Under the pieces are notes generated by a model, which did no database searches, was not told the DNA's origin, and saw only the letters and a list, made by a program, of their open reading frames with translations. A DNA stretch of 64,000 bases from a virus. The translations under genes were made by a program, and so were the position numbers. This document shows, piece after piece, positions 8,748-14,088 of the stretch. The stretch is from IMG/VR virus record IMGVR_UViG_3300020057_000027, positions 62,001-126,000 of that record; one strand, given 5' to 3'. Every line of letters begins with the position of its first letter. Position 1 is the first letter of the stretch.

Positions 8748-9141
8748 GGGGCTGCCATGGTTTCGACTGGAAAAACTAAGGTTAGTCGCGCAAGCCGTAG
8801 ATGATTCTTGGCTACGTTAAAATGAATCAAATGTTAAATGCAAACTCTAACGATTTTGCCGATTACGCACTAGCTGCATAATCTGTGTTTAAGTAAAGAT
8901 AGATAGTAGTATACTTAAACATATAATTTCACCACTATCGGAGCCTCTCAATAACCGTCCGTAAGAGAGTAAACCAAAACTGGGATGGGAATAATGGTTG
9001 ACCATTTGTAATTCAGGTTATGTTGTTTATTTTGAAACTGAATTGCGTGAAGGGCTGAAACCCCTCAAAAAATAAACTACGCTTGTAGTGCGAATAATTA
9101 AAGATTCTAGGACGCGAGTTCGATTCTCGCCAGCTCCACCA
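8748..9141 (+). ncRNA. ssrA: Transfer-messenger RNA (one-piece tmRNA)
   Basis: 394 bases. The 5' end GGGGCUGCCAUGGUUUCGAC is the tmRNA signature. The acceptor stem GGGGCU (8748-8753) pairs with AGCUCC (9132-9137), followed by A and an encoded CCA. The T-arm near 9117 is GCGAG/CUCGC with loop UUCGAUU. The resume codon begins an ORF reading ANSNDFADYALAA-stop (8840-8881), whose YALAA end resembles the protease tags of gamma-proteobacteria. It would rescue stalled ribosomes and tag peptides. The middle is expected to hold pseudoknots, which I did not fold. Confidence 0.93.
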
Positions 9142-9144
9142 TAT

Positions 9145-9219
9145 CGCGGGGAAGAGAAAGAGTAACTCGCTTGGCTCATAACCAAGAGATAGCATGTGCG
9201 ACTCATGCCTCCGCTACCA
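9145..9219 (+). tRNA. tRNA-Met (CAU), initiator-like
   Basis: 75 bases with encoded CCA, four bases after the tmRNA. Anticodon stem CTTGG/CCAAG, loop CTCATAA. The acceptor CGCGGGG against CTCCGCT leaves position 1-72 unpaired (C-U), the hallmark of initiator tRNA, and CGCGGGG is also the start of E. coli tRNA-fMet. The three G-C pairs of the initiator anticodon stem are absent, so initiator identity is uncertain. Confidence 0.85.
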
Positions 9220-11954: not shown

Positions 11955-11983
11955 TTGACAGAACACTAAAATACCTATATAAT
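11955..11983 (+). promoter_or_regulatory. Consensus sigma70 promoter of the first tRNA operon
   Basis: TTGACA (11955-11960), 17 bases, TATAAT (11978-11983): a perfect match. Six bases lead to the ATG of the leader ORF at 11990, so +1 falls on its start codon. Confidence 0.85.
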
Positions 11984-11989
11984 AGTCTT

Positions 11990-12079
11990 ATGATAGAAAT
12001 TCGTTCTAACCTATTACCGCTCCCACTCTTATATCCCTCGCGGGATTATAAAACACTCTTGCGTCCATTGGACGCATAA
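11990..12079 (+). CDS. Leader peptide rich in Leu, Pro and Tyr ahead of tRNA-Pro/Tyr/Leu/Leu
   Basis: 29 codons, probably leaderless (ATG at the expected +1). Residues 8-16 read LLPLPLLYP, nine consecutive codons all Leu, Pro or Tyr. In total 8 Leu, 4 Pro and 2 Tyr in 29. The four tRNAs that follow are Pro, Tyr, Leu and Leu. Hairpins overlap the ORF: ATCCC (12033-12037)/GGGAT (12042-12046) and TGCGTCC (12060-12066)/GGACGCA (12070-12076). GATTAT (12044-12049) can instead pair with ATAATC (12076-12081). Ribosome-sensed attenuation is inferred. Three of the Leu codons are CUC, which the encoded tRNAs would not read. Confidence 0.6.
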   Translation: MIEIRSNLLPLPLLYPSRDYKTLLRPLDA

Positions 12080-12122
12080 TCACACATTCAAATATTAGTA
12101 GAAGAAAAGATAATTAAATTAT

Positions 12123-12199
12123 CTAGGTGTAGCAAAGTTTGGTATTGCGCCCGCTTTGGGAGCGGGAGGCCGCAGGTTCAAATCCTGCCACCTAGACCA
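12123..12199 (+). tRNA. tRNA-Pro (UGG)
   Basis: 77 bases with encoded CCA. Acceptor CTAGGTG/CACCTAG, anticodon stem CCCGC/GCGGG, loop TTTGGGA, T-loop TTCAAAT. First tRNA after the Leu/Pro/Tyr leader. Confidence 0.95.
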
Positions 12200-12202
12200 T
12201 AT

Positions 12203-12286
12203 GGGAGTTAAGACATACGGACTTGTCGGCTGTCTGTAAAACAGTTGTAGAAATGCAAGGGGGTTCGATTCCCTCAACTCCCACCA
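12203..12286 (+). tRNA. tRNA-Tyr (GUA)
   Basis: 84 bases with encoded CCA. Acceptor GGGAGTT/AACTCCC, anticodon loop CTGTAAA, class II variable arm (TTGTAGAAATGCAA), T-loop TTCGATT. Confidence 0.93.
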
Positions 12287-12289
12287 TAT

Positions 12290-12374
12290 ACTCTTGTGGC
12301 GGAACTGGCATACGCGGCAGACTTAAACCCTGTTGCCTTCGGGATTGAGGGTTCGACTCCCTCCAAGAGTACCA
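12290..12374 (+). tRNA. tRNA-Leu (UAA)
   Basis: 85 bases with encoded CCA. Acceptor ACTCTTG/CAAGAGT, anticodon loop CTTAAAC with one A-C mismatch at the top of the stem, long class II variable arm (GTTGCCTTCGGGATT), T-loop TTCGACT. Confidence 0.9.
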
Positions 12375-12382
12375 TTTTTTAT

Positions 12383-12459
12383 AGTCAAGTGATGGAATTG
12401 GAATACATACTTGTCTCAAACACAAGGTTTTAAGGGTTCGACTCCCTTCTTGACTACCA
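12383..12459 (+). tRNA. tRNA-Leu (CAA), unusually short variable arm
   Basis: 77 bases with encoded CCA. Acceptor AGTCAAG/CTTGACT, anticodon stem CTTGT/ACAAG, loop CTCAAAC, T-stem AAGGG/CCCTT. The D-arm is Leu-like, but only about five bases (GTTTT) lie between the anticodon and T arms, whereas bacterial tRNA-Leu normally has a long class II arm. Confidence 0.82.
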
Positions 12460-12476: not shown

Positions 12477-12505
12477 TTGACAAATGCCTTCCCGGCATAT
12501 ATACT
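12477..12505 (+). promoter_or_regulatory. Sigma70-like promoter
   Basis: TTGACA, 17 bases, TATACT. Directs transcription of the structured RNA region between tRNA-Leu and the hammerhead. Confidence 0.75.
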
Positions 12506-12660
12506 ACCACAAGTTGAATGAGTTTTGGGATTTTATGTCCCATTTTCTTTTGTGGATTGTAAGCTCTACTACTACCGTGGCGGGTGGTCTTTAGGTAGGC
12601 CTAAAACGAAGACTTTCGGGTTCACTGTAGTGGAGCTTAGAGTTTACAAATTTGCAAAAT
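12506..12660 (+). ncRNA. Structured RNA of unknown type
   Basis: A 12-bp stem TAAGCTCTACTA (12560-12571)/TAGTGGAGCTTA (12628-12639), with one G-U pair, encloses a smaller helix GTCTT/AAGAC and a TAGG/CCTA hairpin. A separate hairpin TGGGA/TCCCA lies near the 5' end. No tRNA cloverleaf fits. A 19-codon ORF (12535-12594; SSTTT and GG codon runs) crosses the 5' strand of the main stem. No clear terminator follows before the next promoter. Confidence 0.45.
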
Positions 12661-12665
12661 AAAGA

Positions 12666-12695
12666 TTGACAAACGTAGTGAACGTGTGTTATTCT
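12666..12695 (+). promoter_or_regulatory. Sigma70-like promoter upstream of the hammerhead
   Basis: TTGACA, 18 bases, TATTCT. Expected start near 12702, about 50 bases before the ribozyme. Confidence 0.65.
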
Positions 12696-12750: not shown

Positions 12751-12843
12751 CATCGGGCACACCTGATGAGTCCATAAGGACGAAACAGGGGAGTTAATAG
12801 AGCGTAATAATCGGATCGATTGCTCCTCCCCTGTCGTGTGATG
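12751..12843 (+). ncRNA. Hammerhead ribozyme
   Basis: All core elements are present in order: stem I CACAC (12758-12762), core CTGATGA (12763-12769), stem II GTCC-ATAA-GGAC (12770-12781), GAAA (12782-12785), stem III CAGGGGAG (12786-12793) with CTCCCCTG (12826-12833), and then TC with cleavage expected after C12835. GTGTG (12836-12840) closes stem I, extended by CAT/ATG at 12751 and 12841. Stem I is open-ended (type I). It would cut the transcript upstream of tRNA-Glu. An inverted repeat GGGATA/TATCCC (near 12734-12750) lies just before it. Confidence 0.85.
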
Positions 12844-12950: not shown

Positions 12951-13031
12951 ATGGAATCGCGGGTATTTCCACGCCGAGCATTGCGAAAGCGTACATGTGA
13001 ACACTACCGTATAGTTTGCCTAGTTCTGTAA
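12951..13031 (+). CDS. Arg-rich leader peptide overlapping a terminator
   Basis: 26 codons with AAGGA ten bases upstream. Begins MESRVFPRRALRKR and has six Arg. The stop codon (13029-13031) lies in the loop of the terminator hairpin at 13018-13049, the geometry of a transcription attenuator. No tRNA-Arg follows within the window, so what it would sense is unclear. The region 12844-12950 also contains the CGCTTTC/GAAAGCG long-range pair that spans into this ORF. Confidence 0.45.
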   Translation: MESRVFPRRALRKRTCEHYRIVCLVL

Positions 13032-13049
13032 GATTGATTGGGCTTTTTT
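13018..13049 (+). terminator. Terminator or attenuator after the hammerhead RNA
   Basis: GCCTAG (13018-13023) pairs with TTGGGC (13038-13043), including G-U pairs, followed immediately by six T. Confidence 0.65.
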
Positions 13050-13064
13050 GTTTTTAGATATTGT

Positions 13065-13106
13065 ATGTTAAACGGACTGGAACGATTAGAGACTGAGAGA
13101 GCGTAA
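13065..13106 (+). CDS. Possible Glu-rich leader peptide ahead of tRNA-Glu
   Basis: 13 codons reading MLNGLERLETERA, with three Glu, ending eight bases before tRNA-Glu. CGTAA/TTACG can form a hairpin over its stop. No Shine-Dalgarno. It fits the pattern of the two long leaders but is too short to be convincing alone. Confidence 0.3.
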   Translation: MLNGLERLETERA

Positions 13107-13113
13107 TTTTTAC

Positions 13114-13188
13114 GTTCCCGTCTTCTAACGGCTAGGAAGTCTGACTTTCAATCAGATAACGAGGGTTCGATTCCCTCCGGGAACACCA
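13114..13188 (+). tRNA. tRNA-Glu (UUC)
   Basis: 75 bases with encoded CCA. Acceptor GTTCCCG/CGGGAAC, anticodon stem TCTGA/TCAGA, loop CTTTCAA, T-loop TTCGATT. Confidence 0.94.
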
Positions 13189-13381: not shown

Positions 13382-13465
13382 ATGACTACAGATATTACAG
13401 ACGATAGAAGCCACGATATTATGGGCTTATGGTCTAATGGTCATGACGCTACTCTGTCTAAGTAG
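13382..13465 (+). CDS. Possible Asp-rich leader peptide running into tRNA-Asp
   Basis: 27 codons with GAAGGGA upstream. The part before the tRNA reads MTTDITDDRSHDIM, four Asp in fourteen. The ORF then continues through the 5' half of tRNA-Asp and stops just after the anticodon loop, so a translating ribosome would occlude tRNA folding. Consistent with the leader pattern; weak alone. Confidence 0.35.
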   Translation: MTTDITDDRSHDIMGLWSNGHDATLSK

Positions 13466-13497
13466 AAGTCCGGGTTCGATTCCCGATAAGCCCGCCA
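13423..13497 (+). tRNA. tRNA-Asp (GUC)
   Basis: 75 bases with encoded CCA. Acceptor GGGCTTA/TAAGCCC, anticodon stem CTACT/AGTAG, loop CTGTCTA, T-loop TTCGATT. Confidence 0.94.
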
Positions 13498-13517: not shown

Positions 13518-13589
13518 ATGATTAAGTTTCTTTCAATCACGTCCTCATCCACCTGTACATCTACAGGGTCAACAGGCTGTTGCCTGTAA
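13518..13589 (+). CDS. Leader peptide of Ser, Thr, Cys and Gly ahead of tRNA-Gly/Gly/Thr/Cys/Ser
   Basis: 23 codons. Residues 8-22 read TSSSTCTSTGSTGCC, fifteen consecutive codons all Ser, Thr, Cys or Gly. The next five genes are tRNA-Gly(UCC), Gly(GCC), Thr, Cys and Ser. The two Gly codons, GGG and GGC, are the ones those two tRNA-Gly would read. The ORF holds four pairing segments: CCTGTA (13552-13557), TACAGG (13562-13567), ACAGGC (13572-13577) and GCCTGT (13582-13587). They can pair 1:2 plus 3:4, or 2 with 4. GCCC-TAAC-GGGC follows at 13598-13609. No Shine-Dalgarno. Attenuation is inferred. Confidence 0.6.
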   Translation: MIKFLSITSSSTCTSTGSTGCCL

Positions 13590-13652
13590 TTCAATTCGCC
13601 CTAACGGGCACATCATCACAAATAAGGGTAGAAGTTTTTCAAATCGCAAAAT

Positions 13653-13727
13653 GCGAATAAGATGTTAATGGATACATGTCAGTTTTCCAAACTGAATTTC
13701 TCGGATCGTTACCGAGTATTCGCTCCA
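13653..13727 (+). tRNA. tRNA-Gly (UCC)
   Basis: 75 bases with encoded CCA. Acceptor GCGAATA/TATTCGC, anticodon stem TCAGT/ACTGA, loop TTTCCAA, T-arm CTCGG/CCGAG with the unusual loop ATCGTTA. Confidence 0.88.
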
Positions 13728-13730
13728 TAT

Positions 13731-13804
13731 GCGGGATTAGTATAATGGTATCATGTCACGTTGCCAACGTGAAGACGCGAGTCCGATTCTCGCATCCCGC
13801 TCCA
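13731..13804 (+). tRNA. tRNA-Gly (GCC)
   Basis: 74 bases with encoded CCA. Acceptor GCGGGAT/ATCCCGC, anticodon stem TCACG/CGTGA, loop TTGCCAA, T-loop TCCGATT. Confidence 0.94.
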
Positions 13805-13813
13805 ATAGTTTAA

Positions 13814-13887
13814 GCCGTTATAGTATAGTGGTATTATATCCCCCTTGTGAGGTGATGATTCGGGTTCGATTCCTGATGACGGCTCCA
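13814..13887 (+). tRNA. tRNA-Thr (UGU)
   Basis: 74 bases with encoded CCA. Acceptor GCCGTTA/TGACGGC with a G-U pair. Anticodon stem TCCCC/GGTGA with one C-U mismatch and loop CTTGTGA, giving UGU. A His (GUG) reading needs two mismatches and is less likely. Confidence 0.8.
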
Positions 13888-13890
13888 TAT

Positions 13891-13966
13891 GCTTCTTTCG
13901 CCAAGATAGTAAGGCAACCGCCTGCAAAACGGTTATGCGAGGGCGCACATCTCTCAAGAAGCTCCA
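13891..13966 (+). tRNA. tRNA-Cys (GCA) with a degenerate T-loop
   Basis: 76 bases with encoded CCA. Acceptor GCTTCTT/AAGAAGC, anticodon loop CTGCAAA with one mismatch in the stem. The T-stem GAGGG/CTCTC is intact, but the T-loop reads CGCACAT instead of TTCRANY. Confidence 0.8.
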
Positions 13967-13969
13967 TAA

Positions 13970-14053
13970 GGAAGGTACTGCTCAAGGGGGCAATCCGGTT
14001 TGAACCCGGAGGTGATGTAAAAGTCAGGCGTTCGATTCGTCTACCTTCCGCCA
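13970..14053 (+). tRNA. tRNA-Ser (UGA)
   Basis: 84 bases with encoded CCA. Acceptor GGAAGGT/ACCTTCC, anticodon stem TCCGG/CCGGA, loop TTTGAAC, class II variable arm, T-loop TTCGATT. Its last bases are repeated at 16152. Confidence 0.92.
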
Positions 14054-14059
14054 TTTCTC

Positions 14060-14088
14060 TTGACATTATGATGTTGTTGATATATAAT
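14060..14088 (+). promoter_or_regulatory. Consensus sigma70 promoter, leaderless spacing
   Basis: TTGACA, 17 bases, TATAAT, then five bases to the ATG at 14094. Confidence 0.75.

Follow-up and report, generated by a model that had tools for sequence, protein, structure and literature searches.

Organization of the tRNA region

The window analysed here, a stretch of 64 kb, is part of a 164 kb IMG/VR record. It belongs to a T4-like myovirus whose baseplate protein gp6 is 38% identical to that of Pelagibacter phage HTVC008M. Four of the five tRNA groups in this phage follow a short ORF matching their own tRNAs (Table 1). The sequence-only reading had described the first of these, namely a consensus promoter, a 29-codon ORF containing LLPLPLLYP with 14 of 29 residues being Leu, Pro or Tyr, and then tRNA-Pro, tRNA-Tyr and two tRNA-Leu genes. 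All of these are present as stated and the count of residues is right, but it had overlooked that the other tRNA-only units of the cluster display the same cognate-ORF feature.

Table 1. Leader ORFs, tRNA genes and associated elements of the four tRNA-only units (positions in the window)
Feature	Position	Strand	Basis or remark
Unit 1 sigma-70 consensus promoter, TTGACA-17-TATAAT	11955..11983	+	12/12 matches
Unit 1 leader ORF, 29 codons, MIEIRSNLLPLPLLYPSRDYKTLLRPLDA, probably leaderless	11990..12079	+	Leu/Pro/Tyr enriched in own frame only
C-richest/G-poorest 36-nt stretch of the window's + strand; possible Rho loading region	12004..12039	+	
Unit 1 hairpin 1, within the ORF; 5' arm formed by Leu-Tyr-Pro codons	12029..12051	+	MFE, sequence
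Unit 1 hairpin 2, TGCGTCC ATT GGACGCA, extending to the ORF stop codon; without a U-run on this strand	12060..12076	+	MFE, sequence
Unit 1 tRNAs: Pro(UGG) 12123-12199, Tyr(GUA) 12203-12286, Leu(UAA) 12290-12374, Leu(CAA) 12383-12459	12123..12459	+	tRNA calling (ARAGORN)
Terminator-like hairpin with T6, 5' of the unit 2 ORF and not between ORF and tRNA	13018..13049	+	sequence
Unit 2 leader ORF, MLNGLERLETERA, 3 Glu, ending 7 nt 5' of tRNA-Glu	13065..13106	+	
Unit 2 tRNA-Glu(UUC)	13114..13188	+	
Unit 3 leader ORF, MTTDITDDRSHDIMG..., 4 Asp before the tRNA, running into tRNA-Asp	13382..13465	+	
Unit 3 tRNA-Asp(GUC)	13423..13497	+	
Unit 4 leader ORF, MIKFLSITSSSTCTSTGSTGCCL, Ser/Thr/Gly/Cys = 16/22 residues	13518..13589	+	
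Two hairpins within the unit 4 ORF, 13552-13567 and 13572-13587, of which the latter extends to the stop codon	13552..13587	+	
Third unit 4 hairpin, GCCC TAAC GGGC; no U-run	13598..13609	+	
Unit 4 tRNAs: Gly(UCC), Gly(GCC), Thr(UGU)	13653..13887	+	
Unit 4 tRNA-Cys, anticodon GCA by eye, missed by ARAGORN	13891..13964	+	Rfam tRNA, 40.6 bits
Unit 4 tRNA-Ser(UGA)	13970..14053	+	

Unit 4 surfaced in a systematic scan of ORFs located 5' of tRNA runs. Its peptide, SITSSSTCTSTGSTGCC, precedes tRNA-Gly, Gly, Thr, Cys and Ser, and only one residue from position 6 to 22 is not Ser, Thr, Gly or Cys. The layout of unit 4 resembles that of unit 1, with hairpins inside the ORF, the last of which ends at the stop codon. 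The leaders of units 2 and 3 are short; in unit 3, the peptide ahead of tRNA-Asp reads MTTDITDDRSHDI from position 13382. A further ORF, MESRVFPRRALRKRTCEHYRIVCLVL (12951-13049), possibly another leader, has its 3' end within the terminator-like hairpin located 5' of the tRNA-Glu leader.

The fifth unit is composed of a tmRNA (8748-9141, tag ANSNDFADYALAA) and, directly 3' of it, a tRNA (9145-9216) that was missed by ARAGORN (Rfam, 44 bits) and is assigned as tRNA-Met by its anticodon CAT, read by eye. No cognate leader was found upstream of this unit.

Two other RNAs were recorded near the tRNA units. A type I hammerhead ribozyme candidate (12757-12842) sits between two tRNA units behind its own promoter (12666-12695); it displays an intact CTGATGA/GAAA core with a GTC cleavage site after 12835, and its MFE structure folds exactly as a hammerhead, with an Rfam score (24 bits) below threshold. 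Directly 3' of a near-consensus promoter (12477-12505) lies a strongly structured RNA (12512-12650, z -4.6) for which no Rfam match was obtained and which is perhaps comparable to the species 1/2 RNAs that follow the tRNAs of T4.

Correspondence between leaders and downstream tRNAs

In unit 1, at least 14 Leu, Pro or Tyr residues occurred in 0.19% of base shuffles of the ORF (P 0.002), and the uninterrupted run of nine such residues in none of 20,000. Frame 0 contains 14 of them, the other two frames 5 and 6. Enrichment was confined to the ORF's own frame.

For all four units, the best upstream ORF was scored first with the tRNA set of its own unit and then with those of 129 tRNA runs, taken from this phage and from others, the sets being ARAGORN calls with one hand correction (Cys). 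The four units scored against their own sets gave a sum of 14.3, compared with 3.3 +/- 1.4 after permutation, and none of 20,000 permutations reached it; the best of several upstream ORFs was chosen per unit, a choice that the permutations share. Among the 129 sets, the own set ranked first, first, second and first for units 1 to 4, respectively. Compared with random positions of the same window, the four leaders had a combined P of 1e-5. Shuffling confined to 12-nt blocks gave P values of 0.006 for unit 1 (Leu/Pro/Tyr enrichment) and 0.002 for unit 3, with 0 of 20,000 shuffles for unit 4, and unit 2 alone was not significant (P 0.07). These window statistics were computed after the pattern had been noticed there, and the independent phages described below therefore carry most weight.

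That short ORFs in an AT-rich tRNA region merely happen to match their neighbours is very unlikely. The result for unit 2 taken alone would fit such an origin, as would the little or no enrichment in most surveyed phages, but the joint permutation result for the four tRNA-only units, the shuffles of unit 4 by itself and the independent complete attenuators of other phages all argue against it.

Codons and translation starts

The leader-tRNA match holds at the level of amino acids, with synonymous codons, and not at that of the encoded anticodons. It had been cautioned that three CUC codons of unit 1 are not read by the encoded tRNAs; this was borne out and is slightly larger, since under strict wobble CTA and CCC are unread in addition to the three CTC codons. 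The sensed quantity is therefore probably the charging of the entire isoacceptor pool. Cognate codons were also rarer than expected from the genome usage of the phage (P 0.03 for unit 1, P 0.005 for unit 4), the rare ones being CTC, CCC, TCC, ACG and GGG, each representing 4-5% of its codon family. Attenuators often use rare regulatory codons.

The same data bear on antisense pairing, in which leaders would pair with tRNA anticodon arms and look cognate merely through codon-anticodon complementarity. In unit 1, CCGCTCCCA (12017-12025) complements the tRNA-Pro anticodon arm TGGGAGCGG (12157-12165), the two are paired in the MFE structure, and the complementarity has a P of 0.02-0.08. Units 2 to 4 displayed no excess complementarity (P 0.68-0.83), and a match that is frame specific and made of synonymous codons is not what antisense pairing would leave. 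It is thus a very improbable source of the pattern and was rejected as a general explanation, the support for it being weak and confined to unit 1.

Units 1, 2 and 4 lack a Shine-Dalgarno site. In unit 1, the A of the ATG lies 7 nt beyond the -10 element, and transcription plausibly starts on the ATG, as predicted from promoter spacing. An ATG occurs 4-8 nt past the -10 element at 7 of 25 strong promoters of the record (2.4 expected, P 0.007); besides unit 1, the other six open ORFs of 80-234 aa. This excess makes a leaderless start at 11990 credible and supports the use of leaderless starts by the phage. Examples of leaderless genes in the G000 record are found at L022:6779, L022:10856 and at window positions 14060 and 51652. 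At several promoters of this record, the start is surrounded by a palindrome, of which TATACTTATAGTATA is one example.

Possible read-out in the window

As in an attenuator, an upstream ORF in the window carries codons that specify the amino acids of the regulated product. An intrinsic terminator (GC-rich hairpin followed by a U-run) between leader and first gene is absent: a terminator scan of the window detected no U-run terminator between leader ORFs and tRNAs, and the hairpins of units 1 and 4 lack a U-run. The sole terminator-like hairpin (13018-13049), whose loop exceeds the length allowed by the scanner, stands 5' of the unit 2 ORF.

Two hairpins with a competing pairing had been proposed for unit 1. 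The hairpins are indeed predicted by folding (z -2.9) and the pairing GATTAT/ATAATC (12044-12049 with 12076-12081) exists, but it consists of six mostly A-U pairs and is weak, as is a second competing pairing (12039-12045 with 12057-12063). A classical 2:3 antiterminator was considered in unit 1 and rejected, since CGCGGGA/TCTTGCG is short, with two G-U pairs, and would be a poor competitor of the 7-bp hairpin 2. No convincing switch was found among the predicted hairpins of units 1 and 4. With neither a U-run terminator between ORF and tRNAs nor a strong competing pairing, a transcription switch of this kind is not supported in the window.

Rfam models detected no T-box in the window, and no amino-acid operon leader of Rfam matched the window or the phages CcrBL10, Cp1R7A-A1 and G025 (see below). 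By the absence of an intrinsic terminator, the window locus misses one defining feature of attenuators, and an attenuator-like working is still its best reading, with a Rho-dependent or RNA-decay read-out as the most likely inference.

The Rho version is a specific form of this reading, and a tentative one. The leaders of units 1 and 4, which are rich in C and poor in G, would serve as Rho loading sites, and a ribosome stalled on them would block Rho, restricting tRNA synthesis to times of charged-tRNA shortage. Unit 1 contains the 36-nt stretch with the greatest excess of C over G on the + strand of the window, unit 4 is among the top three such regions of that strand, and third-position C is raised in the cognate codons of both (9/30 compared with about 10%). 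On the other hand, C-richness partly follows from the use of Pro, Leu, Ser and Thr codons, and units 2 and 3 are not C-rich.

Cognate leaders with complete attenuators in other phages

A set of 35 tRNA units preceded by an intrinsic terminator within 400 nt, in which the ORF before the terminator was scored and which did not include the units of the window, displayed an ORF-tRNA match of 38.7 compared with 22.0 +/- 3.0 (0 of 50,000 permutations).

In Mesorhizobium phage Cp1R7A-A1, a leader beginning MNLNVVIIPEVEPV precedes tRNA-Val, Ile, Val, Glu and Glu. IMG/VR record G025 contains three leaders starting with MRTI, and two of these end alike in DLTTL: KHKHFSKSSKWF precedes tRNA-Lys, His, Phe, Lys, Trp and others, NLNMINVNNTLN precedes two tRNA-Asn, and a leader with SSSRSSS precedes tRNA-Arg and Ser. 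Caulobacter phage CcrBL10 carries two leaders, one beginning MFALSHLSLSTKAASPASLSLALLATATKPSTKPTT before Pro, Pro, Thr, Lys, Leu, Leu, Leu, His and Ala, and YRQFVQIQVVRNFR before Val, Ile, Ile, Val, Gln, Gln and others. In all three phages a segment in or just past the ORF is complementary to a terminator arm (TGAGGGTTTT/AAAACCCTCA, GAACTTGG/CCAAGTTC, TAATCCGA/TCGGATTA and TCCGGGCGGGCC/GGCCCGCCTGGA); in one further pair of this set, CCGGTGCTT/AAGCACCGG, the complement pairs with the 3' side of the terminator.

The region of the CcrBL10 Val/Ile/Gln leader has matches in 48 Caulobacter and Brevundimonas phage records. Its core, YRQFVRQIQVVRNFR, contains only residues whose tRNAs occur in the operon across the family, and is kept as Y-R-(Q/N)-x-V-...-I-(Q/R)-... 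in ten aligned phages. Core residues belonging to the Val/Ile/Gln/Asn/Arg/Phe/Tyr set number 14-15 of 14-15, compared with 2-5 of 13 outside the core, this set being pooled over the family and matches to the own operon amounting to 9-14 of 14-15. Three mutually exclusive helices were recognized in the same ten phages: helix 1:2 (93.3% of cells paired, both-side changes at 3 pairs), helix 2:3 (95.8%, 4 pairs) and helix 3:4, the terminator before the genes (99.2%, 3 pairs). Pairing fell to 47-67% when the partner was shifted by one column; the shuffle control of this helix test is not a probability, the sequences being related. The operon thus combines the features of an attenuator, i.e. a cognate leader ORF, a 3:4 terminator and exclusive 1:2 and 2:3 helices. 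The Val-Val-Arg codons of the leader make up segment 1, and a ribosome stalled there would therefore free segment 2 for the antiterminator. Terminators are annotated in the record of phiCbK, and the genome paper of this phage mentions neither attenuation nor leaders (PMC3556154).

Phage tRNA genes commonly have small ORFs between them, and the leader ORFs could in principle encode small phage proteins of unrelated function and low-complexity sequence. This is quite unlikely, as it leaves unexplained both the match to downstream tRNAs and the competing hairpins of these other phages.

Additional candidates were recorded during this examination. A conserved leader plus terminator, MSFQMNKQIITSDCRYWHIEGTPLFANMEKHM in L253 (3091-3189, - strand) and MSYPMPKQFTILDCRYWHIEGAPLFADMNRHM in L234 (12315-12413), stands before long tRNA arrays and uses most amino acids, as if any tRNA shortage were sensed; such pan-amino-acid leaders (L253, L234, L262 and L266) are suggestive, and large tRNA sets make their scores uninformative. 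In L216 (3415-3474), MDRRRYLRLTSSRSSSSLS stops 3 nt short of tRNA Ser, Ser, Leu and Tyr and is terminator-free like the window, its score being near the chance expectation for one such case in the survey. The tRNA regions of the Mesorhizobium phage and the Caulobacter phage also contain a GOLLD RNA (L119, 3892-4354) and a skipping-rope RNA (L124, 3617-3713), respectively.

Distribution

Among 435 tRNA runs, a slight enrichment was observed (448 compared with 413 +/- 13, P 0.004). Two general surveys displayed none (P 0.42 with the window excluded, and P 0.20), nor did averaging over all upstream ORFs of tRNA runs; the signal emerged once a terminator was required (the 35 units above). Leader residues thus track downstream tRNAs better than permuted sets in the window units and in terminator-preceded units, and at most slightly in the surveyed phages at large. 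In T4, the ORF before tRNA-Gln displayed a weak score only. Since the surveyed phages as a group show none-to-slight enrichment, the arrangement is not general and looks like a strategy of some lineages within this survey of phage tRNA runs.

Searches for relatives of the window locus were based on the leader DNA, on LLPLPLLYP as a codon-degenerate pattern, and on the genes nearby (the upstream 216-aa gene, PhoH and the 341-aa gene); they yielded a single contig with the leader, and this one is 99.97% identical. In the open-access library that was searched, leader-peptide control of phage tRNAs was not found described.

Proposed mechanism and relation to known systems

The proposal that the leader senses its own downstream tRNAs was strengthened by the codon-tRNA link in four window units (0/20,000) and by its recurrence with attenuators in unrelated phages, but the terminator switch that would complete it is missing from the window. 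We estimate at about three in four the probability that the window ORF, like three others in the cluster, encodes a leader peptide regulating a phage tRNA operon and that charged-tRNA supply is sensed through a read-out other than an intrinsic terminator. A ribosome translating the leader would gauge the supply of charged tRNAs cognate to the downstream genes. When these are scarce, it would stall at the cognate codons and the downstream tRNA genes would be expressed; when they are plentiful, it would pass and expression would be shut off. In the other phages the read-out would be a classical 1:2 / 2:3 / 3:4 attenuator with intrinsic terminator, and in the window phage a terminator-independent one, Rho-dependent or through RNA decay.

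The attenuators of amino-acid operons (trp, his, leu, thr, ilv) use leader peptides rich in the regulated amino acid. The phage leaders resemble them by a short ORF that lies directly 5' of the regulated operon and contains runs of regulatory codons and, in the other phages, by competing 1:2, 2:3 and 3:4 helices with an intrinsic terminator. They differ in that the regulated genes are tRNAs instead of biosynthetic enzymes, so that the sensed molecule would be the product itself, and in that several amino acids would be sensed together; in the window, the intrinsic terminator is moreover absent and the unit 1 ORF probably leaderless. With Rho control of the tnaC/mgtL type, the window would share the principle that ribosome position on a short ORF decides Rho loading, and units 1 and 4 have the C-over-G stretches. 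Here, in contrast, codons would be the sensor and not nascent-chain arrest, and the role of Rho is hypothetical, the C-over-G stretch being the only property measured. T-box leaders are also leader RNAs that sense tRNA charging, but they bind the tRNA directly without translation. Theta (HDV-like) ribozymes adjoin phage tRNAs and have been linked to suppressor tRNAs; they too are regulatory or processing RNA elements beside phage tRNA genes, but act as ribozymes, whereas the window element is a putative translated leader (PMC10879173).

Taken over all phages studied here, it is probable that phages regulate their own tRNAs by sensing a shortage of tRNA. A broader proposal, to which we give slightly less than even odds, is that in several lineages some lytic phages place their tRNA arrays under the control of leaders tuned to the encoded tRNAs. 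Depletion of host charged tRNA, including depletion through tRNA-cleaving defences, would thereby be sensed and answered with replacements, and the window phage would represent a terminator-free version with a leader before each tRNA-only unit.

Phage tRNAs are usually treated as constitutive supplements to codon usage, and why and when they are expressed is an open question. A cognate leader per array implies feedback at the level of the product, in which a shortage of charged tRNA is measured and that very tRNA is made. The complete switch is carried by phiCbK, a well-studied phage of Caulobacter crescentus, which is a laboratory host and not pathogenic. If this control operates as proposed, phage tRNAs would be tied to host stress and to tRNA-cleaving defences.
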